Assembly (NCBI RefSeq): GCF_000154725.1
Contig: NZ_DS544873.1
Coordinates: 1,767,661-1,831,660 of the forward strand
Source: Kordia algicida OT-1
Lineage (GTDB): Bacteria > Bacteroidota > Bacteroidia > Flavobacteriales > Flavobacteriaceae
Reading direction: 5' to 3'
DNA length: 64,000 nucleotides
Shown: one piece after another, positions 46,269-59,889 of the stretch
How positions within the stretch are numbered: the stretch's first letter is position 1
Layout: each line of letters begins with the position of its first letter
Translations under genes and position numbers: made by a program
The notes under the pieces: generated by a model
What the model saw: the letters and a program-made list of their open reading frames with translations, nothing else
Databases searched by the model: none
What the model was told of the DNA's origin: nothing

Positions 46269-47093
46269 TTACACAAAATTATAACAATATTTTTCTTCAA
46301 AATAGTTAATAATAATTGTTGAAATCATATAAATTTCAGCATCAGAAAAGAATAGCTGATTTCTGAATTTTTCAAATAGCAATGTTATATCTATAATTTC
46401 CGTATTGTTCGTTAACATTCCATAGGATAATTTCCATTTTGAAAATGTTGTTGGAGCCGATTCTAACTCATGAAAGGCATTTAATTCTATGAATAATTCG
46501 TCCAATCGTTCTTTTATTTCTTTTTCGTTTTCATTTAAAATTGAAGTCACTTCTGCGTTTAATTTTTCCTTGGTACTTGGAAAAAATTCTATCGTATTTA
46601 GTAACTCTTTAGATTGTTCTAAATAAATTTTTGGAGCATAACCGCCAAGACAGTATAAGTATGTAAAAACCAAACACAATGAATATTCGAAGTCATATTC
46701 GTTTTCAACCAAACATTCTAAAATTTCTAAGTTTAATAGTGAAGTATCTTTTGTGTAAAACGGATCTGATTCATCTACATGTTCATGCTCTAAAATTTTA
46801 ATATAGTCTTGCGGAAATTCACGAAATAATGTTTGAACTTCGGTCATTTTGAACGCTGCAAAGTATTCATATTCAGATTGAAGATATTGTTTCCATTTTG
46901 TTGAAATTTGTTCGTTGAACACTTGATTTTCTTCCGTTGTAAATACTTCCAAGATTAAACGTTTGGGATAACTCGTGTATACAAATGAACTAATTTCGCC
47001 AGTATTTAACAATTCTGAGAATGTGGGTTTTATAAATTCTAGCATCATTTTTTTCTGAGCTTCTTTTGGTATAAAAAATATAAGTTCTAACAT
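46269..47093 (-). CDS. Hypothetical protein of the graspetide cluster
   Basis: A 274-aa soluble, acidic, mostly helical protein (MLELIFFIPKEAQKKMMLEF, then SLLNLEILECLVENEYDFEYSLCLVFTYLYCLGGYAPKIYLEQ). No signal peptide or known motif is seen. It overlaps the glycosyltransferase gene by 7 nt, so it is translationally coupled and is the last gene of the RiPP operon. A role in modification or immunity is possible only by context. Confidence 0.65.
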   Translation of the reverse strand: MLELIFFIPKEAQKKMMLEFIKPTFSELLNTGEISSFVYTSYPKRLILEVFTTEENQVFNEQISTKWKQYLQSEYEYFAAFKMTEVQTLFREFPQDYIKILEHEHVDESDPFYTKDTSLLNLEILECLVENEYDFEYSLCLVFTYLYCLGGYAPKIYLEQSKELLNTIEFFPSTKEKLNAEVTSILNENEKEIKERLDELFIELNAFHELESAPTTFSKWKLSYGMLTNNTEIIDITLLFEKFRNQLFFSDAEIYMISTIIINYFEEKYCYNFV

Positions 47094-48139
47094 GATTGCA
47101 AGCTTTTAGAAAGATTTTGTATGATAGTTTCTCCCCAATTTTCTGGGTTTGGAGCGGTTTGCAGTGAAGCAAATTTATTTTTGTATAGTTTTTTGTTTTC
47201 AAGCGATGTTAATAATAATAGTAATCTTCCTTTGAATATGGAATCGGTCACACGAATAAATGCATCTTGCGTTACAGTATTTTTTGTCGCTTCAGTAGTT
47301 GCGATGTGAATCTTTTTTGTAATATCATTGGTAAATGTTAAACTAATATGAGCATTATTTTGTTTTGTAAAAGTGCCTGTTTGCCAAGTATCTTCAACCA
47401 ATTCTGTATTTACAGCATCTTCTTCTGCTTTTGGCTTTTCAATATTTCCATATTTGAATTTTCCATCTTGAAATAGAAATAAAAGTGTTGATTGAAAACT
47501 ACTTTTGTGTTGAATATACATTGCAGAAACGCCTGTTACGTTTATGTCGTTTTCAAAACTTTCTTCAACATCATGCCAAATGAATTCTACAAATTCAGAA
47601 TTGTTAAATTTTACATTTTTTAATCCAGACATCGTTAACCTGTTGTATAAGTCATCATCTTCAAATCCCCAACCTGACATGCGTTCGTCATATCCTTTTA
47701 CGGCTAAAAAATCATCTTTTTTTACGCAAACACGTCCTGTAGAGCCATCCGCAAAAGCTGATGTTAGAAATATGTTTCCGCTAAAACTAAATTGGTAATT
47801 TATAAAGTACGCAAAATCTTTTCCTAAGTAATTATCGGCATCTAAGTTGCAAATTATATCTCCTGTTGCAAGTTTCATCACTACGTTTCGAGAATGCGAT
47901 CGGTGAAATGTTTCGGGAATGTTGGTACTGTAAAACTTCAAAATTCCCATATCGAGATACACTTTTAAATCGTTTGTAACCCACGATTTTATATCGTCGT
48001 TAGAGTTGTAATCCAAAAGCACGAATTCGATATTTTCATAATCTATATTGTCTTCTATATTACGTACTAATGTTTCTTTTAAGTGATACAATCGATTCAT
48101 AGAAACCGTACAAAAAGATATTTTATTTTTCAATTTCAT
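47087..48139 (-). CDS. Family 2 / galactosyltransferase-like glycosyltransferase
   Basis: A 350-aa protein with a GT-A core: ISFCTVSMNRLYHLKETLVRNI (nucleotide binding), NLDADNYLGKDF (DxD), and GYDERMSGWGFEDDDLYNRL, the C-terminal galactosyltransferase motif (Glyco_transf_7C). The last 130 residues form an extra domain of unknown type. It has no membrane segment. Its place in the operon of a Ser/Thr-rich RiPP suggests it may glycosylate the peptide; that is inference. Confidence 0.85.
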   Translation of the reverse strand: MKLKNKISFCTVSMNRLYHLKETLVRNIEDNIDYENIEFVLLDYNSNDDIKSWVTNDLKVYLDMGILKFYSTNIPETFHRSHSRNVVMKLATGDIICNLDADNYLGKDFAYFINYQFSFSGNIFLTSAFADGSTGRVCVKKDDFLAVKGYDERMSGWGFEDDDLYNRLTMSGLKNVKFNNSEFVEFIWHDVEESFENDINVTGVSAMYIQHKSSFQSTLLFLFQDGKFKYGNIEKPKAEEDAVNTELVEDTWQTGTFTKQNNAHISLTFTNDITKKIHIATTEATKNTVTQDAFIRVTDSIFKGRLLLLLTSLENKKLYKNKFASLQTAPNPENWGETIIQNLSKSLQSC

Positions 48140-48320: not shown

Positions 48321-50552
48321 TTACGCGCTTAATTCAAGTTGATTTTTCACTAAATTGAAGTAATATCCTTTGGTTTTTACCAATTCTGTATGCGTTCCGC
48401 GCTCTACAATGTGTCCTTTTTTTAATACGATTATTTGATCTGCATTTTTTACGGTGGAAAGTCTGTGTGCAATTTTCACCACTGTTTTCCCTTTAAAAAA
48501 GGAATCTAGATGCTCATAAATTATTTTTTCGTTTTCCGCATCAAGTGCAGAAGTTGCTTCATCAAAAAAAATAAAATGTGGATTCTTGTATACAGCGCGT
48601 GCAATGAATACACGTTGTCTTTGTCCGCCAGAAAGTCCATTTCCGTTACTTCCTACCATTGTTTGTAGTCCTGAAGGCAATGTAGAAACAAATTCTTCTA
48701 GGTTGGCAATATGCAATGCTTTTTGTAATTGTTTTGGATCAACCTCAGCATCGCCCGTTACAATATTTCGTTCTAAAGTATCTGAGAATAAGAAACCATC
48801 TTGCAGTACAATTCCACAGTTTTTTCGTAAATCTTTCGCAGATATATCTACCAAATTGTCGTTATCATATTTTATTGTGCCTTCAATGGGATTGTAGAAT
48901 TTTAATAACAATTTCATTAACGTTGTTTTTCCACTTCCACTTTCACCAACAATTGCTGTTGTTTTTCCTTTTGGAATGTTGAAATCTATGTTTTCTAATA
49001 CATACGGAGATCGCGGACCAGAATATTGAAATGAAACGTTATTAACGGCAATTCCTTTTGGTGTTGTCGTTGTATGATTGTTATTTTCATATAATAACAC
49101 ATGATGATTTTGCACTTCATTTTCAATATTTTGCACTTCGTATAAACGTTCCAAACTGAGCTTAGCAAATTGCCACGATCGGAAGAATTCAATAAGTTGA
49201 TTAATTGGCGAATTCATTTGCCCGATGATGTAAGAAATACTCAATAAAGCTCCTAAAGTGATGTTTCCCAAAATTACTTCGCGCGCAGCGATAAAGATGA
49301 CCACGATGTTTTTGAGCTGATTGATAAAGTCATAACCCATCAACTGAATTTGATCTAATTTTAAAGCTCTTAAGTTTATTTTGAAAAGCTTTATTTGCGA
49401 TTTTTTCCAACGAGAAATTCTGTAACGCTCCATATTATTGAGCTTAACTTCTTCTATTCCGTTGATTAATTCGAAAACCGATTGCTGACTTTCACTTTTA
49501 TAGTTGAACCGATAATAATCAATTTTTTCAAGTTTCTTTAAAAACACTAATGACCAAATGATAGCAAGAAGTGTTAGAGATGAATAGATCACCAAGATTT
49601 TAAAATCGTAATAGGTTAATACAAAGAAGAATACCAAAAAGTTGAGTGACGAAAAAATCACCATAAGACTTTGTGAAGTAAGAAATTCTTCTATACGTTC
49701 GTGATCTTGAATTCGTTGTGAAAAATCGCCCAATTGCCTAGAATCAAAGAAAGAAAATGGTAAGAGTATGATTTTGTTTAAAAAGTCGGAAACAATTGTA
49801 ATGTTGATTTTTGAGTTGATATAAACCAACACCCAACTTTTAACTATTTCAACAAGAGTGGAACTTAAAAACAGAAAAACTTGTGCCAATAAAATGATGA
49901 AGACAAAGTTTAAGTTTTTAGATTCTACTCCAATGTCAATTAGTGCTTTGGTTAAAAATGGAAAGATGAGTGTAAAGAAACTTGTAACTCCCAAACCCAA
50001 ACCAAGAATGCTAATTTCACGCTTGTAAGGTTTTAAAAACTTGTAAATGAATGCAAAACTGAACGCTTTTTCTTTGATGATTTCTTTGTCGTGAAATGCT
50101 TCGGTAGGATTTAAAAATAATGCAATTCCTTTGTCTTGTTGTAACCACATTTTTTCAAAGTTTACTTGATCGATCGTAATTTTTCCGTGTGACGGATCAG
50201 CAATTTTGAAGCTTACTTTGTTGGTTATTGGATGCTTTTTTACTTTGTATAGTACTACATAATGTCCATTATCCCAAAACAGAATACATGGTAATGGTGC
50301 TTTTTGAATGAGTTCATCAATGGTAATTTTTACAGGCATAGTTTCAAAACCCATTTTTATGGCACCTTCTTCAATTCCCAACAAGTTAGAACCATCTTTA
50401 CCTAAAAAACATTCGTCGCGTACTTGACGTATGTAATATTTTTTTCCGTGATAACGTGCTATCATTACCAAACATGCTGGTCCGCAGTCCATCACGTCGT
50501 GTTGATAGACAAATTCAAATGGCTTTAAGCTGTTTCGTAATTGTTGTAGCAT
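48321..50552 (-). CDS. Peptidase-containing ABC exporter (C39 peptidase, PCAT)
   Basis: A 743-aa half-transporter: N-terminal C39 peptidase (catalytic Cys in DVMDCGPACLVMIARYHGKKY, His in DNGHYVVLYKV, Asp in ADPSHGKI), six membrane helices (about 165-440) and an ABC domain (GESGSGKTT, LSGGQRQRVFIARA, IFFDEATSALD). It cleaves GG leaders and exports the core peptide, fitting the two GG precursors in the cluster. It lies 1 nt after the SPASM gene. Confidence 0.95.
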   Translation of the reverse strand: MLQQLRNSLKPFEFVYQHDVMDCGPACLVMIARYHGKKYYIRQVRDECFLGKDGSNLLGIEEGAIKMGFETMPVKITIDELIQKAPLPCILFWDNGHYVVLYKVKKHPITNKVSFKIADPSHGKITIDQVNFEKMWLQQDKGIALFLNPTEAFHDKEIIKEKAFSFAFIYKFLKPYKREISILGLGLGVTSFFTLIFPFLTKALIDIGVESKNLNFVFIILLAQVFLFLSSTLVEIVKSWVLVYINSKINITIVSDFLNKIILLPFSFFDSRQLGDFSQRIQDHERIEEFLTSQSLMVIFSSLNFLVFFFVLTYYDFKILVIYSSLTLLAIIWSLVFLKKLEKIDYYRFNYKSESQQSVFELINGIEEVKLNNMERYRISRWKKSQIKLFKINLRALKLDQIQLMGYDFINQLKNIVVIFIAAREVILGNITLGALLSISYIIGQMNSPINQLIEFFRSWQFAKLSLERLYEVQNIENEVQNHHVLLYENNNHTTTTPKGIAVNNVSFQYSGPRSPYVLENIDFNIPKGKTTAIVGESGSGKTTLMKLLLKFYNPIEGTIKYDNDNLVDISAKDLRKNCGIVLQDGFLFSDTLERNIVTGDAEVDPKQLQKALHIANLEEFVSTLPSGLQTMVGSNGNGLSGGQRQRVFIARAVYKNPHFIFFDEATSALDAENEKIIYEHLDSFFKGKTVVKIAHRLSTVKNADQIIVLKKGHIVERGTHTELVKTKGYYFNLVKNQLELSA

Positions 50553-50553
50553 A

Positions 50554-51648
50554 TTAATGTTCTGTAACTAATAGTTTTAATGGATTGATGCTCCAATCTT
50601 CCCATACATTGGTATAAGGATTGTATCCGCATCGTAATGGTTTGCTGTATTCGTCATCTGTTTGTTGTGTAAAAGCTCTACAATCGGAACAGTTGTATCT
50701 AAATTCGCAGTCGCGACAAATAGCAATGTCATCTTTTTTGACATTCCAAAGTGATTGGTATGATTTTTCTTGAATGACGTCTTCAATACGTTTTTCTTTA
50801 AAGTTTCCGTAAGTTTTGGTCATTTTCGGACAGTTTTTAATGTTTCCTGTCGTATCAATTGTCAATTTTTTAAAGAGACAACCATTGTGTTTTTGATGAA
50901 AGTGATGTGTTCCCATGTCACTAAAATTCAAGTGATCGAATGAAATTGTTCCACAGCAACCTTTTTCAAAATCTAATGTATGATGGCTTACTTTTCCAAT
51001 TTCGATTGGGAAATACGTTTCGCGTTCTATGTAATAATCTACCGCTTTTTCAGTCTTGGCGTTGTATACATGCACATGACTCAATGGCGCATATGTTTTG
51101 AGTAAGTAATGCCACTGATCGTTAGTAATTTCTCCTTCATTTTTTAGATATAATTCTACATATAACATGTTTGCTTGGTCAATGATGGAAAGTACTTTGT
51201 CAATGAATGAAAAGTTGGTTTTTGATGAAATTCTAATTTGCAAATCGTTGCAATGCAGTTCGTTAATTTGAAAGATGAGTGATGAAAAATCTTCTTCATT
51301 AAAAACAGTTTCATCAACTTCTAGAATAGCATCTTTTAGAATGACATGATCGTCATCGTAAGCCGTTGAAACTTCAGGAAACTTTTCAATTTCTTCCGTT
51401 AAAAAACCAAATTCATGCACAAGCATATATTCTATAAAGCTGAAGAATGAGTTTTTTGAATCTTCATCAATATGTGCAATGATTTCTGTTATTTTTTTTC
51501 GGTTGATATCTTGTACCAAATCGTAATATTCATTTGGGATAATTTGCACATCGCCACGAGAATAATCAATAATTATACTTCTTTTTGCACCTTTTACCAG
51601 CTTGCAACTAGATGATACAAAGAATACATCATTTTTTGAATACTTCAT
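50554..51648 (-). CDS. SPASM-domain peptide maturase of the grasp-with-spasm type
   Basis: A 364-aa protein whose last 120 residues carry a SPASM-like cysteine array (GCLFKKLTIDTTGNIKNCPKM, then CRDCEFRYNCSDCRAF) for iron-sulfur clusters. The N-terminal part is a divergent barrel but has no CxxxCxxC motif, so it should not make a normal radical-SAM cluster. In known Bacteroidota clusters such proteins pair with an ATP-grasp enzyme, as here. It overlaps the 75-aa gene by 20 nt. Confidence 0.88.
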   Translation of the reverse strand: MKYSKNDVFFVSSSCKLVKGAKRSIIIDYSRGDVQIIPNEYYDLVQDINRKKITEIIAHIDEDSKNSFFSFIEYMLVHEFGFLTEEIEKFPEVSTAYDDDHVILKDAILEVDETVFNEEDFSSLIFQINELHCNDLQIRISSKTNFSFIDKVLSIIDQANMLYVELYLKNEGEITNDQWHYLLKTYAPLSHVHVYNAKTEKAVDYYIERETYFPIEIGKVSHHTLDFEKGCCGTISFDHLNFSDMGTHHFHQKHNGCLFKKLTIDTTGNIKNCPKMTKTYGNFKEKRIEDVIQEKSYQSLWNVKKDDIAICRDCEFRYNCSDCRAFTQQTDDEYSKPLRCGYNPYTNVWEDWSINPLKLLVTEH

Positions 51649-51856
51649 TTTCAGTGGTTTTAGGTTCGTATTTTTTACAGATTATTCGGTTTGGATAGTA
51701 ACCACGCATTTCAATACTTTGCGTAGCTTCATTGTATTTGTACAATGCCAATTCGTCTTCAATATTGGTAACTTGGTTGTAAAATATTCTTTTAAAAAAG
51801 AGTGGTAAACCTGCAAGTTCTTCTGTTTCAAGTTCTATTTTATTCAATGATTCCAT
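51629..51856 (-). CDS. Small protein between the ATP-grasp and SPASM genes (75 aa)
   Basis: MESLNKIELETEELAGLPLFFKRIFYNQVTNIEDELALYK is its N-terminal part, followed by a Tyr-rich, basic C-terminus. It overlaps the ATP-grasp gene by 17 nt and the SPASM gene by 20 nt, which makes coupled translation likely. No GG leader is present, so it is not a precursor. A leader-binding or adaptor role is possible, but no RRE fold can be seen. Confidence 0.7.
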   Translation of the reverse strand: MESLNKIELETEELAGLPLFFKRIFYNQVTNIEDELALYKYNEATQSIEMRGYYPNRIICKKYEPKTTENEVFKK

Positions 51857-52847
51857 GTATGAGATATTTTGCGATTACTTCATCTAAATTATAGTTACAC
51901 GGCAAATTTGTCATGGCATATTGCCCAACAGGATTGATTTCTAGAAATACATATTCGTTGTTTTCGTTGACAATCAAATCTACGGAGCCGCAGTTGAGTT
52001 GTAAGTGTTTGAAGACGTTTTCCAACTTGTCTTCAACACTTTTTGGGAGCTTGTATGTTTCGCATTTGTTTGGCTTGCTGTCGGAGTATTTTCGGAAGTC
52101 AACTTTTGTCTGATTAAGTGATTGCGACATGATTGCCATTGAGTAGAAATGTCCGTCGAGGTAAAATGTACGAATCTCCATTTTTTTGTCAATAATATTC
52201 ATAATCATCGATGGAAAAACGTTGACATCATTTCCTGCAAAATCTTCTTTTTTGTGTAATTCTGTATATGTGTAGAAACTATTGTTGCCAATAACTTCGT
52301 AGATGCCTTCTGCTATTGATTTGGTTACAAACTCGTTTTTTATGCCGCTTGGCGCTATTTGATTTAGATTTGAAATAATTTCATAATCAGGAGTTTGCAA
52401 TCCGTGTTGTTGTGCTATGTCTAAAACTTCTAACTTATTCAGTCCGTATCGCCAAGGACTTCCAATATTTATTTTACAGTTTTCGTATATGCGTCTTAGT
52501 ATGTATTCTTTCAGGTCAGCAGTTTCTGATCTTAGTAGGCTTTTGCGTCCTTTTATTAAGACTGATAAATCTAATTCATTTGCGATGAAATCTTCTTTTG
52601 GCGTATCTAATATGAAGTTTTTCATGCTTATTCCTGTACGTCGCCACCAACAACTTTTGGCTTCTAACAGGTTATATGTTTTGTTTGTTCGGGTATTTTT
52701 AAAGTAAATACCTTCTTTGTTGATGAGCGAAAATTTGAAGGTATCGTCATCAGAATTTATTCTGATCACTTCTTCTCCATGATGCTTGAGTCTGTAAATG
52801 ACGTCACTTGTAGAGATTTCATTTTCTGTTGAAAATATGATGATCAT
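51840..52847 (-). CDS. ATP-grasp peptide maturase (graspetide macrocyclase)
   Basis: The frame is open from 52931, but family members begin like MIIIFSTENEISTSDVIYRL, so the ATG at 52847 is chosen (335 aa). The ATP-grasp domain shows FVTKSIAEGIYEVIG, the lid, and the metal-binding CGSVDLIVNENNEYVFLEINPVGQY. Microviridin-type enzymes of this family form ester or amide links between Thr/Ser/Lys and Asp/Glu side chains. It lies 265 nt after precursor 1, behind a stem-loop. Confidence 0.9.
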   Translation of the reverse strand: MIIIFSTENEISTSDVIYRLKHHGEEVIRINSDDDTFKFSLINKEGIYFKNTRTNKTYNLLEAKSCWWRRTGISMKNFILDTPKEDFIANELDLSVLIKGRKSLLRSETADLKEYILRRIYENCKINIGSPWRYGLNKLEVLDIAQQHGLQTPDYEIISNLNQIAPSGIKNEFVTKSIAEGIYEVIGNNSFYTYTELHKKEDFAGNDVNVFPSMIMNIIDKKMEIRTFYLDGHFYSMAIMSQSLNQTKVDFRKYSDSKPNKCETYKLPKSVEDKLENVFKHLQLNCGSVDLIVNENNEYVFLEINPVGQYAMTNLPCNYNLDEVIAKYLIHGIIE

Positions 52848-53050
52848 AGTATTAGATTTAAAATTTGGTATGGTTTGATTCTTGGTTTTCCTAAAACAGT
52901 TGTTTCTGAATATTTTAGCGATAAAATTCACACTATCTTTAGGATATATTTCTCCTTATTCCTTTCACAATCAACATATTGATATGCCATTGAGGAATGC
53001 TTTTATTTTACAAAAAAATGTATGGAAAAGGTAGTTGGTAATTTTTTTAA

Positions 53051-53090
53051 ACATGTGCGACAGACAGCTGTTGCCTGCCGCACTATGCTT
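53051..53090 (-). promoter_or_regulatory. Stem-loop between precursor and maturase genes
   Basis: The minus strand forms GTGCGGCAGGCA-N5-TGTCTGTCGCAC, a 12-bp stem with two wobbles, with no clear T-run. Placed between the precursor genes and the enzyme genes, it probably acts as a partial terminator or an RNA-stability barrier giving more precursor than enzyme mRNA. Confidence 0.6.
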
Positions 53091-53112
53091 ATGATTGACT
53101 AGTTATTTATTT

Positions 53113-53268
53113 CTAGTCAGAGTCAGTTCTTCTTGAATCAGAGTCACTTCCAGTACAAGATGTGTGTGTTCTACGTGAAGTCGTTGATCCGCTCCCTCCT
53201 TTTGTGTTTAATCTTTCGTTTAGAGTCAACTTTGAAGTTTGAAACTCTGCTAAATTAATTTTCTTCAT
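53113..53268 (-). CDS. Graspetide-like precursor peptide 1 (GG leader, 51 aa)
   Basis: MKKINLAEFQTSKLTLNERL is the leader start, NTKGG the GG cleavage site, and the core runs from SGSTTSRRTHTSCTG to SDSDSRRTDSD. The leader is of the Bacteroidota GG type. The core has many Ser/Thr donors and four Asp acceptors. The last 16 residues align with precursor 2 at T, C, D, D and RRTDS. It is located just upstream of the ATP-grasp gene. Confidence 0.85.
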   Translation of the reverse strand: MKKINLAEFQTSKLTLNERLNTKGGSGSTTSRRTHTSCTGSDSDSRRTDSD

Positions 53269-53398: not shown

Positions 53399-53523
53399 TT
53401 AGTTAGAATCTGTTCTTCTAGGGTCAGCATCTGCATGAGCACATAATGTTACTCTATATTTAGTTCGAGTTGAACCACTTCCTCCGCTAGTATTTAATCG
53501 TTCATTTAAATTTATTTTTTCAT
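53399..53523 (-). pseudogene. Graspetide-like precursor peptide 2, frameshifted in a poly-A run
   Basis: The ATG at 53523 is followed by six A and TAA after three codons (MKK). One additional A would give a 41-aa peptide beginning MKKINLNERLNTSGG with core SGSTRTKYRVTLCAHADADP and end RRTDSN, clearly a sister of precursor 1. No alternative start exists in the peptide frame. It may be a pseudogene, a phase-variable gene, a slippage-expressed gene or a sequencing error. It begins 16 nt after the upstream gene. Confidence 0.75.
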
Positions 53524-53539: not shown

Positions 53540-54910
53540 TTATGATTCTTGAATTTGTGTTTCTTCCAATGCATACGAAAAAGCCACTACAATTTTTAAG
53601 GAAATAAAATGTGCTATTCGCATCCAGATAGTGTTTACAAATTCTTGCTTTTCTGTTTCTGGAAAGTCATCGCTTAGATAGTTTAATACATTGACTTTAA
53701 ATAGTTCGCTATCGCACGGTTTCTTGAGTTCGTTAAAGATGATTTGATCTATAGCAATCATTTCTTCTTCTATATTATTTCCATCTAATTCCTGGACAGA
53801 GATATAATTTCCATCTTCTACATCTTCAATGATATCAACACTCGGCAAAACCATCAATTTGAAATTTTCAGCTGCTTTTTTTAGCTTCCAAAAGTTGGCA
53901 ACTTGCCCACTCATGTATAAATCGCGTGCAATGAGAAAGCTAGGTTTGTCATGCATTTTTGCTGATTTTAAAAATGTGTTCGGAAATTCTTTTATGATGG
54001 CTTCATTTGTCGCTTTGGTATAGTCATACGGAATATACGAACTCAATTTTGGCTTGTTGAGTAGTATTTCCAAACGTTTGTAATATGCTGGATAGTTTTT
54101 CATCACATAACTTTCCATTTTTTTACAGACAACTAATTGTCGTTTAAAATCACCTAATAAATGTAAGTAGGTTCTTTTGTGTGGTACATCTTCAAAGTTT
54201 CCGAAATTTGTATATTGGTTGTCGCCAATGTCTTCTTTTATATAAGTTGAAACTTCTTGTTTTTCAATCTTAGTCATCTCAAAAAACAATACTTGCTCAA
54301 AGAATATGTTGAAATTGAATTGGTTTACTTTTGTTAAATTTTCTTTGTTTTTATCTACAAATGAAAACGATGCTTCACAGTATTTTTGCATGAAATCCAT
54401 GTTGTTACCGCCAAAGATTCCCATGTTATAAGCTTTGTTGTGCACCGATTGGTCAAACAACTCCATAGATGTTGGCAAGTGCGTTAAATGCGGTCGAATG
54501 TCTGCCCACATAGTTCGGTAATATTCCGAAGTAGTTTCGATATTTTGAGCAATTAGGTTCGAGGACATTAATTCGTCACTAAATTTTTCCCAGATAAATA
54601 CATCGCCATCTACATGTAAAAAAGGTGTTTTTTGAATTTGATAGGTTTTTATTTTTGCCAATGCCCAAAGGTCTGACGGATATTTGTTGAGTTCGTCCAA
54701 AACCACATGTACTTTAGTGTATGGTAATTGCAATTTTTCAATCAGTAATTCGTAACCGTATGTGTCTGTTACCAATTCTACCTCATCGTAATATTTGCAG
54801 AGTTGATTCACGCTTAAAATCCAACCCAATAAGTGGTACTTTTCAGAGAACCATCCGCAACTTGGAATGACTTCACTGTTTCCTGTCCAAAAACTTTGTA
54901 TAATTTTCAT
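53540..54910 (-). CDS. Glycosyltransferase-like protein (DUF6734-like)
   Basis: A 456-aa protein with an N-terminal GT-A-like segment: MKIIQSFWTGNSEVIPSCGW, KYYDEVELVTDTYGYELLI, and LWALAKIKTYQIQKTPFLHVDGDVFIWEKF, where DGD corresponds to the metal-binding DxD. It resembles, from memory, DUF6734 of Bacteroidota. No membrane segment. It is 42 nt after the outer-membrane protein gene and 16 nt before precursor 2, so it is part of the operon. The sugar donor is unknown. Confidence 0.75.
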   Translation of the reverse strand: MKIIQSFWTGNSEVIPSCGWFSEKYHLLGWILSVNQLCKYYDEVELVTDTYGYELLIEKLQLPYTKVHVVLDELNKYPSDLWALAKIKTYQIQKTPFLHVDGDVFIWEKFSDELMSSNLIAQNIETTSEYYRTMWADIRPHLTHLPTSMELFDQSVHNKAYNMGIFGGNNMDFMQKYCEASFSFVDKNKENLTKVNQFNFNIFFEQVLFFEMTKIEKQEVSTYIKEDIGDNQYTNFGNFEDVPHKRTYLHLLGDFKRQLVVCKKMESYVMKNYPAYYKRLEILLNKPKLSSYIPYDYTKATNEAIIKEFPNTFLKSAKMHDKPSFLIARDLYMSGQVANFWKLKKAAENFKLMVLPSVDIIEDVEDGNYISVQELDGNNIEEEMIAIDQIIFNELKKPCDSELFKVNVLNYLSDDFPETEKQEFVNTIWMRIAHFISLKIVVAFSYALEETQIQES

Positions 54911-54952: not shown

Positions 54953-57343
54953 TTATAATCTGCTCTTATCAGAGTCGTCTGCTTTTCTTCGAGACGATTT
55001 AGATTTATTGTTTCCAAAGGTGTATGTCAACGCAACATTGAGGCGTCGGATGTCATTGTATATCCTGGAGTTGAATGTATAGTTTTGGTAAATTTCTCTG
55101 TTTCTATTTCGATTTTGTCTAAAGATATCGCTTACCGAAGCATTTAGGGTTAATCGCTTGTCCATGAATGTGAACTTTCCTCCTATTTGCAAGTTTGCTC
55201 TGTTGAATGTTTTGAGAAAGCCATTGGTTTCCGGAAAGTTTTGGAAAAAATTCACATATACTGTATTTCCTTTTTCCTTGTTGAGCGTGAATGTATTGCG
55301 TGTGGATATGTAGAATCCTGATCCTGATAAATCTGCCAATGTCACGGTTGGTATTTTTGATTCTGAACTGTTGTAATACGCGCTAAATCCGTTGTTACTG
55401 TTAAACCAACTTGTCGGGTTGAAGTTGTAATAAATATCCAAACCAAATGTTGATTGATCGTAAAAGTTTTCAGGTCGTGAAATAACCGTGTTTGTGTCTG
55501 CTGTTGTAAGCGTGATGAAATCTACTGCATCTTTTAAAATAGTATGATATACACTTATTTCCAAATCGTTGTTAAAGATGTATGAGAAATCAATATTATG
55601 CGTTATTGATGGTATTAGTAATGGGTTTCCTTCGTTGAATGAGAAGAAATCTGTGTAACTTCTAAATGGATTGATATCTGAGAAACCTGGTCTGTCAATT
55701 CTTTTGGAATAACCAACTGAGAACGAATGTTTATCACTTGGATCATATGCCAATGTAAGCGATGGAAATATGTTATTGAAGTTGTTTTCAGTTACAATTC
55801 CTGTTGTGATAGAATTTCCTCTGGTTTGCGTGTGCTCATAGCGCAATCCTAAAATGAGATAAAACGCTTCTCCTAAAGGTCTTTGATATGAAGTATATAA
55901 AGCGTACACCTCTTCATCATATGCAAATACGTTGCTTTGATTTGCGTCTAGTATTGAAGTTCCTGATGTAGTGTCAAAAAACTGAATGTCACTATCGTTT
56001 TTAAGGAATGTAAGTTTTCCTCCAAAACCTAATTTACTATCTTTTATTGGCAATTCTACATCTACATTTAATGAATTTACTTGATAGTCAGCTTCTGAAA
56101 TATTGAGTGCCGAATTTGTTCCTGTGAGGTTGTTCAAATCTCCTTCGTATCTAGATAAAAATAGTGAGCGATCGTCCTCGTTGTTTTTCTTTAAATGATT
56201 GTAGTTGAATTGTAATGTACTTCCTATCGTATCTAACTTGATATCGTAATAGGCAGAAGCCGATAGATAATCGTATTTGTTTGTATTATTAGATGGTGCA
56301 ATTAAAGCAGAATCAATTTGTTGCGAACTTAGCGATCTAAAGATGGTATTATTTTGTAATGCTCCTTCTGTTTTCCAGATATCGCTATTTAAGATGATTC
56401 CTGCTTTGTGATTGTCACTAAATTTGTATTCGAAATTTAATCCGCTAGACAATCCATCAATTTCCTGTTTGGTTCGTGTAGATCCGTTTCGCCTTAGTGT
56501 TGGATATAAAAACTCATTGCTAGATTCTGATCGTTTTGCTTCATTATCTGCAAATAGGTTGAATGCGATCAACATTCTATCTGTTGAGTATTTTAAGTAT
56601 GTGGAAGGCATAAACCCTGGATATGAGCGTTGTACGTAAGTTGCTGTTACAGAACCGTCAAAACCAATATTAGTGTTCTTTTTTAGGATAATATTAATCA
56701 ATCCGCTGTTTCCAGAAGCATCAAACCGTGCTGGAGGGTTTGTAATGATCTCAATTTTCTCTATATTTTCTGAGCGTAACGATTTTAGGTATGAATCCAA
56801 GCTTTGTCCGTCTAAATTCAACAAACGATCGTTCACCATGACTGCAAGTTTACTTTTTCCAATCATTTTAATTCCATCGCTTGTTGGATCTATTTTTGGT
56901 GCAAATTTTAACGCTTCCATAGCATTAAATCCGTTAGACGCTACACTATTTTTTATATTAAAGATGAGTTTTCCTGCTTTCCGCTGAATAATGGGTTTTT
57001 TGGCAGTAATTACGACTTCTTTGAGTTGATTTTCACTTTCTAATAAAGTAATGATTCCTATTGCTGTTGGTGAATTAGGCGTTATTATTTTTTCCCAGTT
57101 TTTATATCCAACAAAACTTACAATAAGCTGGAAAGCTTCTGATGTTGTGACAGTAATTTCAAATTTTCCAGCTTCATCAGTTATTACACCTGTAATCAAT
57201 TTTCCGTCAGTTGTACTCTTTACGATTACATTTGCAAAAGCAACTTCATTTCCTTGTGCATCTTTTACAGAACCTGTATAAGTCTGAGCTACTAAGAATT
57301 GACATGCTAAGAAGATTAATATATATGTAATTGTATTTTTCAT
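54953..57343 (-). CDS. Outer-membrane beta-barrel protein with CarboxypepD-like N-terminus (TonB-dependent type)
   Basis: A 796-aa protein with signal peptide (ITYILIFLACQFLVAQ), a regulatory-like domain (GSVKDAQGNEVAFANVIVKST..FVGYKNW), a plug (AMEALKFAPKIDPTSDGIKMIGKSKLAVMVNDRLLNLDG, then IEIITNPPARFDASGNSGLINIILKK) and a long barrel (outer membrane barrel family 3). It heads the RiPP operon, under a promoter with the 20-bp regulon motif, and may move the peptide or its ligand across the outer membrane. Confidence 0.9.
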   Translation of the reverse strand: MKNTITYILIFLACQFLVAQTYTGSVKDAQGNEVAFANVIVKSTTDGKLITGVITDEAGKFEITVTTSEAFQLIVSFVGYKNWEKIITPNSPTAIGIITLLESENQLKEVVITAKKPIIQRKAGKLIFNIKNSVASNGFNAMEALKFAPKIDPTSDGIKMIGKSKLAVMVNDRLLNLDGQSLDSYLKSLRSENIEKIEIITNPPARFDASGNSGLINIILKKNTNIGFDGSVTATYVQRSYPGFMPSTYLKYSTDRMLIAFNLFADNEAKRSESSNEFLYPTLRRNGSTRTKQEIDGLSSGLNFEYKFSDNHKAGIILNSDIWKTEGALQNNTIFRSLSSQQIDSALIAPSNNTNKYDYLSASAYYDIKLDTIGSTLQFNYNHLKKNNEDDRSLFLSRYEGDLNNLTGTNSALNISEADYQVNSLNVDVELPIKDSKLGFGGKLTFLKNDSDIQFFDTTSGTSILDANQSNVFAYDEEVYALYTSYQRPLGEAFYLILGLRYEHTQTRGNSITTGIVTENNFNNIFPSLTLAYDPSDKHSFSVGYSKRIDRPGFSDINPFRSYTDFFSFNEGNPLLIPSITHNIDFSYIFNNDLEISVYHTILKDAVDFITLTTADTNTVISRPENFYDQSTFGLDIYYNFNPTSWFNSNNGFSAYYNSSESKIPTVTLADLSGSGFYISTRNTFTLNKEKGNTVYVNFFQNFPETNGFLKTFNRANLQIGGKFTFMDKRLTLNASVSDIFRQNRNRNREIYQNYTFNSRIYNDIRRLNVALTYTFGNNKSKSSRRKADDSDKSRL

Positions 57344-57362: not shown

Positions 57363-57410
57363 CAAATCTACGAGGTATTCATTTACGGTTTATTACACAA
57401 AAGAGTAGTT
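57363..57410 (-). promoter_or_regulatory. Regulon promoter of the RiPP operon
   Basis: The operator AACTACTCTTTTGTGTAATA (57410-57391) lies exactly 40 bp upstream of the -7 box TAGATTTG (57370-57363). There is no -33 TTG at the right place, as expected for an activator-dependent promoter. The operator overlaps the last codons of the acyltransferase gene. Confidence 0.75.
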
Positions 57411-58079
57411 CAATGATTTGTTGTGTAAAACTACACTTAAAGGTAGTTGCTGAGTTTGAAGTGGTTTGTTGAATGTTTCTGACGCAACTAATACCTTATT
57501 CTTATTATAAAAATCAATCAGTCCTTCATACGTCATAGAAATAGGAATTGTTTCAGATCCTAAATAATTGATAGATTTCCCAATAATTTCTGTTTTAATT
57601 CCTAGTAAAGATAAAACTCGCAATAATTTACTATCAATTTCAGCGAAAGCAATATTATCTTTGTGCTGGCAGATTGGTTTTATAGCACAAACCATTAACT
57701 TTTTGAATAAATTTACATTCCGTACATTCTTCTTGATAGCAAAACGACCAATATGGAATATGCTATTGATTTTTGTTTTTTGAGTTGCCATTAAAGGATT
57801 GATTCCGAAGATTTTTTCTAATGGTAACTTATCTTTATAGTTCCATTTTAGTACACGAATTGCTCCCAAAATACTTCCCATTCTATCTTTGGCTGCATAG
57901 ATTTCAGAATCTTTATAGAATTTCTGTTCTTCGTTTTTAATATACGCTACATCTTTTTCGTAGTCACTAGGTAAGATATTATTAGCGTGATGTTTAAAAT
58001 TTTCCTTTACTACAAATTTAGCAATGTCTAAAATTTGATTTTTCTGAAGTCTTTCTAAATGGTTGTCTGTTAGTATCAT
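57393..58079 (-). CDS. FeeM / autoinducer-synthase-like N-acyltransferase
   Basis: A 228-aa protein of the GNAT-related acyl-transfer fold used by FeeM and AHL synthases: YKDSEIYAAKDRMGSILGAIRVLKW (first strands), FHIGRFAIKKNVRNVNLFKKLMVCAIKPI (donor-binding helix) and AFAEIDSKLLRVLSLLGI, where the acyl chain would bind. Predicted product: an N-acyl amino acid or similar signal. It is divergent from the LuxR gene and has the regulon promoter. Confidence 0.75.
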   Translation of the reverse strand: MILTDNHLERLQKNQILDIAKFVVKENFKHHANNILPSDYEKDVAYIKNEEQKFYKDSEIYAAKDRMGSILGAIRVLKWNYKDKLPLEKIFGINPLMATQKTKINSIFHIGRFAIKKNVRNVNLFKKLMVCAIKPICQHKDNIAFAEIDSKLLRVLSLLGIKTEIIGKSINYLGSETIPISMTYEGLIDFYNKNKVLVASETFNKPLQTQQLPLSVVLHNKSLNYSFV

Positions 58080-58095
58080 AATGGTTATTTTCCAT

Positions 58096-58143
58096 CAAAT
58101 CTATACAGAGTCAGTAGGGTTTGTATTACACTAAATAGTAGTT
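58096..58143 (-). promoter_or_regulatory. Regulon promoter of the acyltransferase gene
   Basis: AACTACTATTTAGTGTAATA (58143-58124), then 20 nt, then TAGATTTG (58103-58096). Operator to -7 box distance is 40 bp, as in the other two promoters. Confidence 0.75.
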
Positions 58144-58161
58144 ATCCGAAGCGCTATAAAA

Positions 58162-58216
58162 AACTACACAAAAGTGTGTAAGAGGTTTCTTTTTTTAATA
58201 AATAAGACTATCTTTA
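58162..58216 (+). promoter_or_regulatory. Degenerate operator upstream of the luxR-type gene
   Basis: AACTACACAAAAGTGTGTAA (58162-58181) shares its first six bases and the GTGTAA-like end with the regulon motif and contains the palindrome ACAC-AAAA-GTGT. A -7-like TATCTTTA (58209-58216) lies 47 bp from it, 7 bp more than in the three other promoters. Autoregulation is possible. Confidence 0.45.
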
Positions 58217-58235
58217 ACTTTCATATGAAAATGCT

Positions 58236-58994
58236 ATGCCAGATGTAAATGATTTTTTCTCTTTTCGGAATTCAGTAGATAATATTTCTGATGATGACCA
58301 AAAGCAAACTGCCAATTATTTAGAACCTATAAGTGCTTTTGCTCGCACTACTTACAAAAGTATTTATGTAATAGATTACCAAGCAAAAGGGTTTGAGTAT
58401 GTTTCAGATAATCCTTTGTTTTTGTGTGGTCATACTGCTGATGAAGTAAAGGAAATGGGGTATGCTTTTTATTTTAAATATGTTATAAAACCCGATCTAG
58501 ATTTATTATTGACCATCAATACAGCTGGCTTTGAGTTTTATGAGAAAATTCCTTTAGAAGATAGAAAAAATCACACAATTTCGTATGATTATCATTTAAA
58601 AAATAATGAAGGAAAAGTAATTTTAATCAATCAGAAATTAACTCCCATATTTTTGACTAATGAAGGGAAAATATGGAAAGCCTTATGCATCATTTCATTG
58701 TCTGCAGAACAAAAATCAGGAAACATAAAAGTTTACAAAAAAGGAGATAATAAAGTTTTTAAATATGATTTGGAAGGCGGTTTCTGGAAGACTCAAGAGA
58801 AAATAAAGCTCACGAGTAGAGAGAAAGAAATTCTTCAATATTCAACTCGTGGTTATACTATTAACGAAATTGCAAAGACTATTTTTGTTTCACCTGATAC
58901 TGTAAAGTTTCACCGTAGAAAATTGTTTGACAAATTGGAAGTGGCAAATATTTCTGAAGCAATCGCATATGCGACTAATAATAAACTTATTTAA
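58236..58994 (+). CDS. LuxR-type transcriptional regulator with PAS-like sensor
   Basis: A 252-aa protein: residues about 35-170 form a PAS-like sensor (VIDYQAKGFEYVSDNPLFLCGHTADEVKEMGYAFY; then an NEGKVILINQKLTPIFL strand pair), residues about 190-252 a LuxR HTH (LTSREKEILQYSTRGYTINEIAKTIFVSPDTVKFHRRKLFDKL). The sensor differs from classic AHL-binding domains. It is divergent from the acyltransferase gene and is the best candidate regulator of the 20-bp operator. Confidence 0.88.
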   Translation: MPDVNDFFSFRNSVDNISDDDQKQTANYLEPISAFARTTYKSIYVIDYQAKGFEYVSDNPLFLCGHTADEVKEMGYAFYFKYVIKPDLDLLLTINTAGFEFYEKIPLEDRKNHTISYDYHLKNNEGKVILINQKLTPIFLTNEGKIWKALCIISLSAEQKSGNIKVYKKGDNKVFKYDLEGGFWKTQEKIKLTSREKEILQYSTRGYTINEIAKTIFVSPDTVKFHRRKLFDKLEVANISEAIAYATNNKLI

Positions 58995-59068
58995 ACCTGT
59001 TTATGGTTTTTTAATCAAACATATCTTTTTGAGTGATTTTAAGACACTAAAATTAGCAACGAGTTTAT

Positions 59069-59863
59069 TTAATCATTCATCAATGTAGATAAGTAAAACT
59101 CAGGGAATTTTTTAAATTCTTTTCCGGTAGCTATTTTAAAAAGTACGTGTGTACACATAGCAGCTACAATCCATGAAGCTATAGCTAATTGTGGTGGTGG
59201 CAAATTCCCTTCTTCATTTTTATAGCTTTCCAAGATATCGTCTATCCATAAATGCGGAGTTCCCCAAAATTTCAAATAGTTTGAAGCATATTCTACCATA
59301 TTCACTTCGCTGATATTTTCAGGCTGTTTATTTAATGTTTCTAGTGTGAGACTATCTGGCGTAATCACCGTGAGTAATCCGCCCCAACCTAAGTTATACG
59401 GATGCAAAACGGAAATATTTTGCGATTGACAAAGTTTATCAAATATCAATGGTACATCTGAAGTAAAATCTAGTGCGTTGATTGCTATTTTGTGTCCTTT
59501 GATGAATTCTTCAAGATTTTCGTGAGTCAAAAAACAATTATGAACCACAATATTTGCATTCGAATTTATTGCTTCGAGTCTGCTTTTAATCGCCAAAGTT
59601 TTGTCTGTTGCAATATCAGCTTCCGTATAATTTTGTCGGTTTAAATTAGAATCTTCTACCTGATCGCCATCAATAATTGTAATATTTTCAAATCCTAAAC
59701 GCAAAGCACATTCAGCTATATTACTTCCAATACCAGAACCTCCTAGAATTACGGGGGTTTTTTTAATAATTTGTTGCTCAGCTTCCGTTATGTAAATTCT
59801 GTTTCTGCTGTAACGTGTTTTCATTATATTGAATTTTGATTCAAAGATACTACATGTCATCAC
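59069..59863 (-). CDS. ThiF/E1-like adenylyltransferase
   Basis: A 264-aa protein with the E1 ATP-binding core: VILGGSGIGSNIAECALRLGF (GxGxxG), IIDGDQVEDSNLNRQNY (Asp and Arg for adenylation), NALDFTSDVPLIFDKLCQ and YNLGWGGLLTVI. No CxxC zinc pairs and no clear catalytic Cys for thioester transfer are seen. It would adenylate a C-terminal carboxylate; no ubiquitin-like or ThiS-like protein is adjacent. It has the regulon promoter. Confidence 0.87.
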   Translation of the reverse strand: MMTCSIFESKFNIMKTRYSRNRIYITEAEQQIIKKTPVILGGSGIGSNIAECALRLGFENITIIDGDQVEDSNLNRQNYTEADIATDKTLAIKSRLEAINSNANIVVHNCFLTHENLEEFIKGHKIAINALDFTSDVPLIFDKLCQSQNISVLHPYNLGWGGLLTVITPDSLTLETLNKQPENISEVNMVEYASNYLKFWGTPHLWIDDILESYKNEEGNLPPPQLAIASWIVAAMCTHVLFKIATGKEFKKFPEFYLSTLMND

Positions 59864-59889
59864 AAAAAATTTTAACCTAAAGAGTAGTT
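59842..59889 (-). promoter_or_regulatory. Regulon promoter of the ThiF gene
   Basis: AACTACTCTTTAGGTTAAAA (59889-59870), then 20 nt, then TATCTTTG (59849-59842). The motif is the most diverged of the three but the 40-bp spacing is exact. Confidence 0.7.

Follow-up and report, generated by a model that had tools for sequence, protein, structure and literature searches.

In a 64-kb stretch of the Kordia algicida OT-1 genome, here called the window, genes for a FeeM-like N-acyltransferase, a LuxR-type regulator (luxR) and a ThiF-family adenylyltransferase (thiF) lie next to an operon that starts with an outer-membrane protein gene and includes the genes of a ribosomally synthesised and post-translationally modified peptide (RiPP). 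We call the three genes the cassette and the genes that follow it the cargo. All coordinates are positions in the window, and strands are given relative to it (Table 1). A sequence-only reading of this DNA had proposed that one operator joins the acyltransferase gene, thiF and the peptide operon. We found this to be the case, and across genomes the operator tracks the LuxR-type gene. The best model for this arrangement is a LuxR regulon with an acyl signal.

One operator at three promoters

The three 20-mers on which that reading was built are present, each exactly 40 nt ahead of a TAnnTTTG box when counted from first base to first base (57410/57370 for the cargo, 58143/58103 for the acyltransferase gene and 59889/59849 for thiF). 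Their common pattern matched three times in the whole 5.03-Mb Kordia genome, only at these promoters, versus one match of a reversed-pattern control. A looser pattern that included the 40-nt spacing and allowed one mismatch gave four matches versus three control matches. Three of the four were the window sites; the fourth has a degraded -7 box and lies inside a 685-aa reading frame, and was judged to be a chance match. These searches rule out that the motif is randomly scattered over the genome.

Across 63 sites from all loci scanned, the spacers between operator and -7 box had a mean pairwise identity of 0.31 (0.29 expected), versus 0.72 for the operators. Thus, the spacers are unrelated, as had been noticed for the window, which rules out simple promoter duplication. 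The primary promoter consensus of Bacteroidota is TAnnTTTG with a TTG at -33. While the -7 box is present here, a TTG 17–23 nt before it was found at none of the 63 promoter sites (about 12% per site expected by chance), which extends the lack of a proper -33 element to all loci scanned. With regard to gene boundaries, the cargo operator encodes the terminal NYSFV of the acyltransferase in the window, and the C-terminus [ND]Y[ST][FL]V is shared by 8 of 18 acyltransferases. For thiF, ATG 59824 is the likelier start; the GTG further upstream precedes the -7 box.

Table 1. Operators, promoters and genes in the 64-kb Kordia window.
Feature	Position	Strand	Remarks
Proximal operator of the cargo promoter	57391..57410	-	AACTACTCTTTTGTGTAATA; overlaps acyltransferase stop codon
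-7 box of the cargo promoter	57363..57370	-	TAGATTTG; 40 nt after operator start
Distal operator of the cargo promoter	57429..57448	-	AACTACCTTTAAGTGTAGTT (AACTAC-N8-GTAGTT); 38 bp upstream of proximal operator; score 20.6
Proximal operator of the acyltransferase promoter	58124..58143	-	AACTACTATTTAGTGTAATA
-7 box of the acyltransferase promoter	58096..58103	-	TAGATTTG
Weak distal dyad between acyltransferase gene and luxR	58162..58181	.	TTACACACTTTTGTGTAGTT on minus strand; 38 bp from proximal operator; score 8.3, below threshold of 11
Single operator of the thiF promoter	59870..59889	-	AACTACTCTTTAGGTTAAAA
-7 box of the thiF promoter	59842..59849	-	TATCTTTG
FeeM-like N-acyltransferase	57393..58079	-	228 aa; predicted signal synthase
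LuxR-type regulator	58236..58994	+	252 aa; GerE helix-turn-helix (HTH) and N-terminal sensor-like domain
ThiF-family adenylyltransferase	59069..59824	-	251 aa; close homologue of PDB 9egb/9egc/9egd
Outer-membrane beta-barrel protein (OMP_b-brl_3)	54953..57343	-	First gene of the cargo operon
DUF6734 protein	53540..54910	-	Cargo operon
RiPP precursor	53113..53268	-	51 aa; leader, then GG; by eye
ATP-grasp maturase	51840..52931	-	TIGR04192, 484.1 versus cut-off 230
SPASM-domain maturase	50554..51648	-	TIGR04193, 537.3 versus cut-off 175
C39-peptidase ABC exporter	48321..50552	-	
Glycosyltransferase-like protein	47087..48139	-	Cluster end

Dyad structure and twin operators

From 35 sites at 17 loci, the operator consensus wACTACnCTTTnGTGTArtr was obtained, an imperfect 20-bp inverted repeat whose CTAC and GTA arms are conserved. 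Site counts do not include L013 and L017, which are duplicates of L026 and L036. The dyad form would suit a dimer of a GerE-type protein, and the predicted position of the operator centre near -42 is compatible with a LuxR-type activator. In 20 held-out loci, TAnnTTTG boxes 20–70 nt from sites found with a position weight matrix (PWM) lay at exactly 40 nt in 28 of 31 cases.

Beyond what the sequence-only reading had described, many operators of acyltransferase and cargo promoters are twinned. A second dyad, counted at scores of at least 11, was found upstream of 21 of the 40 proximal sites at the first loci, at a distance of 37–39 bp. The 20 held-out loci gave 21 of 33, where the distance was exactly 38 bp in 20 cases and 28 bp in the remaining one; five further loci, read afterwards, are not included in the held-out spacing and twin counts. 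In both locus sets together, none of the 20 thiF-promoter sites had a second dyad, versus 42 of the 53 other promoter sites.

The degenerate copy that had been noticed before the LuxR-type gene corresponds to the weak dyad between the acyltransferase gene and luxR, which could serve either of the two. At L014, L092, L093 and L094, a TAnnTTTG box lies 47–48 nt from the dyad at this position, toward luxR, so that autoregulation of luxR through this dyad is possible judging from the sequence. In the window, luxR has no TAnnTTTG box at this place, and autoregulation, as claimed for the Kordia regulon, is no more than a possibility.

One genome (G541) contains three copies of the cassette (L089, L090 and L091). 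In the third copy, L091, GTATAG replaces GTGTAG in the operators and the recognition helix of the LuxR-type protein is altered. This looks like insulation between parallel systems, although as a single case it was not used as proof.

The operator in whole genomes

The pattern CTAC-N6-GNGTAR-N22-TANNTTTG was run on whole genomes. In the first (training) set it occurred in all 15 genomes with the acyltransferase gene and in none of the 11 without it, with no control matches; this test is partly circular, as the pattern had been derived from sites in the same genomes, and a held-out set served as the independent test. There, the pattern was present in 17 of 22 acyltransferase genomes versus 0 of 20 without the gene (Fisher p ~1e-7), where the 20 negatives were the first listed, not a random choice, with LuxR searched for in some of them only, and the 22 positives leave out G000, G001 and G127, which had already been used. 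Among held-out genomes that bear LuxR without the acyltransferase, one of three carried the pattern; there was one held-out control match. The comparison with relatives that the first reading had called for showed the operator recurring with the cassette. In the training set, 25 of 27 matches were located at cassette promoters. The other two lay elsewhere in G033, one beside its luxR, and no match was at the acyltransferase gene of that genome.

Searches for the acyltransferase gene were positive in 9 of 249 family genomes, 8 of 11 genus genomes and 25 of 395 order genomes (the last by profile), each count including the window genome. In a draw from the phylum, 11 of 395 genomes were positive; all 11 belong to the two families represented in the order draw and had been seen there before. 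The cassette of acyltransferase, LuxR and ThiF, marked by the operator, occurs in two families of Flavobacteriales. LuxR orthologues (E up to 1e-50) were detected in 12 of the 249 family genomes, and none of the nine acyltransferase genomes lacks one. The acyltransferase gene adjoins luxR in 17 of 18 first, 19 of 20 held-out and 5 of 5 last-read loci. A ThiF orthologue was present in 11 of 11 acyltransferase genomes checked, versus 0 of 5 without the acyltransferase. These 11 comprised six with thiF outside the stretch read and five then unread; in the five genomes read later, thiF sits within the cassette. In one genus (g128; L030, L098, L099 and L100), thiF is located about 8–9 kb from the acyltransferase gene, and at L030 several NHLP-like precursor genes lie between the two.

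The operator and luxR

At two loci, L031 and L096, an acyltransferase–thiF pair has neither an adjacent luxR nor an operator. This rules out that the operator is a property of the enzyme pair and not of LuxR. Conversely, L066 and L068 have luxR without a neighbouring acyltransferase gene, and dyads are kept nearby. At L068 (in G033), luxR is apart from a distant acyltransferase–thiF pair, and one nearby dyad precedes an outer-membrane beta-barrel gene.

In G135, where no acyltransferase or ThiF orthologue was found, a perfect TACACCC-GGGTGTA dyad (L065, 6688–6735) with TAGATTTG at 40 nt stands before a two-gene set that faces the luxR orthologue 2 kb away. No PWM site scored 12 at L065, and the dyad itself scored only 8.3; its symmetry and spacing suggest that it may be a real variant operator. 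The operator follows luxR rather than the enzymes, and the dyad at L065 has probably been retained.

Cassette genes and their likely product

The FeeM family (PF21926) was matched by 16 of 18 cassette acyltransferases at E up to 0.05 (best 1.8e-5). The LuxI family of synthases (PF00765) was matched by one of the 18, at E 0.01, and this was not the window protein. A profile of the acyltransferases found no match among PDB sequences at E up to 1. Judged from these family matches, an acyl-type product is plausible. All 18 LuxR-type relatives contain the GerE DNA-binding domain. The domain that binds N-acyl homoserine lactone (AHL) was not among the 21 Pfam families matched by any of the 18 members at E up to 1. 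Among full-length proteins of solved structure, 3clo is the nearest to the regulator, with a match that spans residues 99–250. ThiF of the window scored 110.3 bits against PF00899 (cut-off 28.1) and is a full-length close homologue of PDB 9egb/9egc/9egd (383.8 bits); the motifs GxGxGS, DGD, SNLNRQ and DF are invariant in 17 of 17 proteins.

Acyltransferase and ThiF form the type of pair that yields N-acyl oxazolones in other phyla. According to the accessible parts of these reports, FeeM-like TyzA with the ThiF homologue TyzB, and likewise TrzAS, make such compounds (PMC10404671, PMC12856293), and synthase–ThiF pairs have been described in Massilia, Thalassotalea and Stieleria (PMC12479983). 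For the TyzA model, FeeM and the AHL synthase BjaI are the nearest structures, and TyzB cyclises N-acyl tyrosine (PMC10404671). TrzAS makes tryptazolones, whose likeness to AHL signals its authors remarked upon, and in the portion available they term the physiological role of N-acyl oxazolones a major unresolved question (PMC12856293).

As far as the available text of these reports goes, the Kordia genes share with TyzACB, TrzAS and OxzAB (PMC10404671, PMC12856293) the combination of an N-acyltransferase, here putatively of FeeM/LuxI type, and a ThiF-type cyclase. They differ in that they come with a LuxR-type regulator and an operator of their own, and in that no flavin-dependent oxidase was among the scanned window proteins. 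Thus, the product is more likely to have a saturated ring, or to be cyclised in another way, than to be the same desaturated oxazolone.

A second comparison is with LuxI/LuxR AHL quorum sensing. Common to both are a positive-loop layout, a GerE-HTH regulator with an adjacent synthase, which in the cassette is predicted to transfer acyl groups, and a 20-bp dyad, here predicted near -42, the lux box being 20 bp long and located near -42. Unlike the AHL systems, the cassette has a synthase without LuxI-family match in the window and a regulator without detectable AHL-binding domain, and it includes a ThiF gene, Bacteroidota-type promoters and often twin dyads.

Cargo behind the cassette

We analysed the cargo at 38 loci (18 first and 20 held-out; the five last-read loci and L097 were left unclassified). 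In 12 of the 38, an NHLP-like RiPP cluster with an AraC-type regulator, precursor, TolC, HlyD and C39 exporters follows the cassette. L026 was the only one of these to be scanned (precursor 49.9 versus the NHLP-leader cut-off of 50.9; HlyD 322.5 versus 156.2 for TIGR03794), the others being assigned by homology. Five loci have an outer-membrane protein with small peptides, followed in four by a LanC-like gene (L014, L092, L105 and L106), while L093 ends earlier; this cargo is lanthipeptide-like. The window has a grasp-with-spasm cluster as cargo.

A NusG paralogue is the first cargo gene at L016, L029, L032, L033 and L034 (checked by Pfam for L032 and L034), and is possibly an antiterminator for a long operon. 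It is followed by non-ribosomal peptide synthetase (NRPS) genes at L032 and L033, by a carbamoyltransferase and a cupin at L029, and by DAHP synthase and anthranilate-synthase-like enzymes at L016. Mixed or uncharacterised cargo was found at 13 loci (L015, L024, L025, L027, L028, L034, L090, L091, L094, L095, L104, L107 and L108). Two further loci of the census, L031 and L096, are without luxR. Three cargo types occur within Kordia, where the cassette genes stay alike. As cargo varies between loci, the two enzymes appear to go with the regulator and not with one product. A general cassette whose cargo changes between genomes, with a likely role for ThiF in the same pathway, goes beyond what had been read from the window.

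Discussion

The first reading had offered an autoregulated LuxR regulon that makes an acyl signal. Its regulon part is supported by the shared operator and its tracking of luxR, and the FeeM-like family matches make an acyl-type product plausible. We consider it rather probable that the cassette is a self-amplifying signalling unit placed before a biosynthetic cluster. The acyltransferase would attach a fatty acyl group to an amino acid, and ThiF would adenylate the carboxylate and cyclise the product, with an N-acyl oxazolone or a similar ring as the most likely outcome. Sensing this product, the LuxR-type protein would bind the 20-bp dyads as a dimer and contact RNA polymerase from about -42, at promoters with a Bacteroidota -7 box and no -33 box. 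This would activate synthase and cargo, often through twin dyads about 38 bp apart, and thiF through one dyad. In Kordia, the cargo switched on would be the outer-membrane protein together with the grasp-with-spasm RiPP, whose genes would be reached by read-through from the outer-membrane protein promoter.

The following wider proposal is tentative and falls slightly short of an even chance. In Flavobacteriales, a FeeM-like synthase and a ThiF cyclase would produce a cyclised N-acyl amino acid of the oxazolone type as a diffusible quorum-sensing signal. A LuxR-type protein with a non-AHL sensor would read it through dyads of rigid 38/40 geometry, and the whole would serve as an exchangeable control module ahead of RiPP, NRPS and other clusters.

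Several observations weigh against the interpretation as a signalling unit. Site counts are not independent, owing to the common ancestry of related genomes. Of the 28 held-out matches, 23 were at acyltransferase, thiF or cargo promoters; five were not, namely one just past luxR in G275, three elsewhere in G326, G319 and G456, and one in the LuxR-only genome G135. Five of the 22 held-out acyltransferase genomes gave no exact match (L097, L100, L107, L111 and L112), although all carry cassette dyads in variant form, with changed letters, a -7 box that lacks its last G, or 41-nt spacing. The synthase is missing from three of the 12 family genomes that have LuxR; in one of the three the regulator is broken, and the locus with the broken luxR (L067) has no promoter site. 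The window acyltransferase scored 21 against FeeM, below the gathering score of 27, and 31.9 against TIGR03694, far below the cut-off of 111.95. PAS_3 was weakly matched by 7 of 18 LuxR-type relatives and not by the window protein, so that a PAS-like sensor is weakly supported. Finally, a flavin-dependent oxidase of the nitroreductase family was absent from the 10 window proteins scanned, a set that does not cover the other reading frames of the window or its relatives.

Some of these observations would also fit a real regulon that does not serve quorum sensing. Here the LuxR-type protein would sense an internal or environmental cue such as redox, haem or lipid state, and the acyltransferase–ThiF product would be an active output metabolite co-expressed with the cargo. 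PAS-type domains often bind cofactors, regulators without synthase exist in the family as counted above, and in G135 the operator stands at another two-gene set near luxR. As far as the available part of the tryptazolone report goes, no signalling role has been shown for N-acyl oxazolones (PMC12856293). Against this stands the layout of a signal loop, with the synthase under its own, often twinned operator beside luxR whatever the cargo, and the sensor part of LuxR is highly conserved across two families. We regard this alternative as unlikely, if still deserving attention.

Many cargos resemble RiPPs, and RiPP biosynthesis is known to include fatty acylation by GNAT-type enzymes as well as ThiF-like enzymes. 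Acyltransferase and ThiF might accordingly act in tailoring, by acylating or cyclising the peptide encoded in the cargo, with LuxR merely controlling the cluster. This is quite improbable, as the same pair precedes NRPS, shikimate-type and other clusters and occurs without luxR or these cargos at L031 and L096. Least probable of all is that the LuxR-type protein is a repressor whose operators block polymerase: they overlap the -33 region, an arrangement shared with repressor sites, but the missing -33 TTG is what activator-dependent promoters would show, and the rigid 40-nt and 38-bp geometry suits polymerase contact.

If the signalling interpretation is true, Flavobacteriales possess a form of acyl-signal quorum sensing that differs from AHL systems and is their own, and acyl oxazolones gain a signalling function. 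The operator would then allow genome-wide reading of which natural-product clusters are controlled, and the inducer could wake silent clusters. Literature searches for the cassette or its parts found no description of the cassette; most subscription journals were not covered, which makes this weak evidence of novelty.

For K. algicida, the accessible part of one report describes density-dependent protease release that was sped up by cell-free filtrate, with no AHL detected (PMC3117869), so that an unknown signal has already been sought in the genus. Two points argue against a simple link between the cassette and protease release. A later study, as far as its text was available, describes nutrient-dependent control, with quorum sensing neither shown nor excluded (PMC10565126), and our pattern searches gave no further operator outside coding regions in the Kordia genome.

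The cargo operon of the window

The window contains both maturases of a grasp-with-spasm RiPP cluster, TIGR04192 and TIGR04193, each far above its cut-off; such clusters are one of several cargos of the cassette. The precursor was recognised by eye only and had no match in library scans. Since the TIGR04192 match begins at residue 30, the likely start of the ATP-grasp maturase is an ATG near 52847. A second precursor-like stretch (53399–53523, minus strand), also seen by eye, lies between the DUF6734 gene and the intact precursor gene. It has a GG and a similar core tail, and its frame is broken. 3' of the precursor gene, a strong hairpin is present on the minus strand (53048–53091; -26.3 kcal/mol, z -5.06), which could be a terminator or an attenuator that sets the ratio of precursor to maturase.

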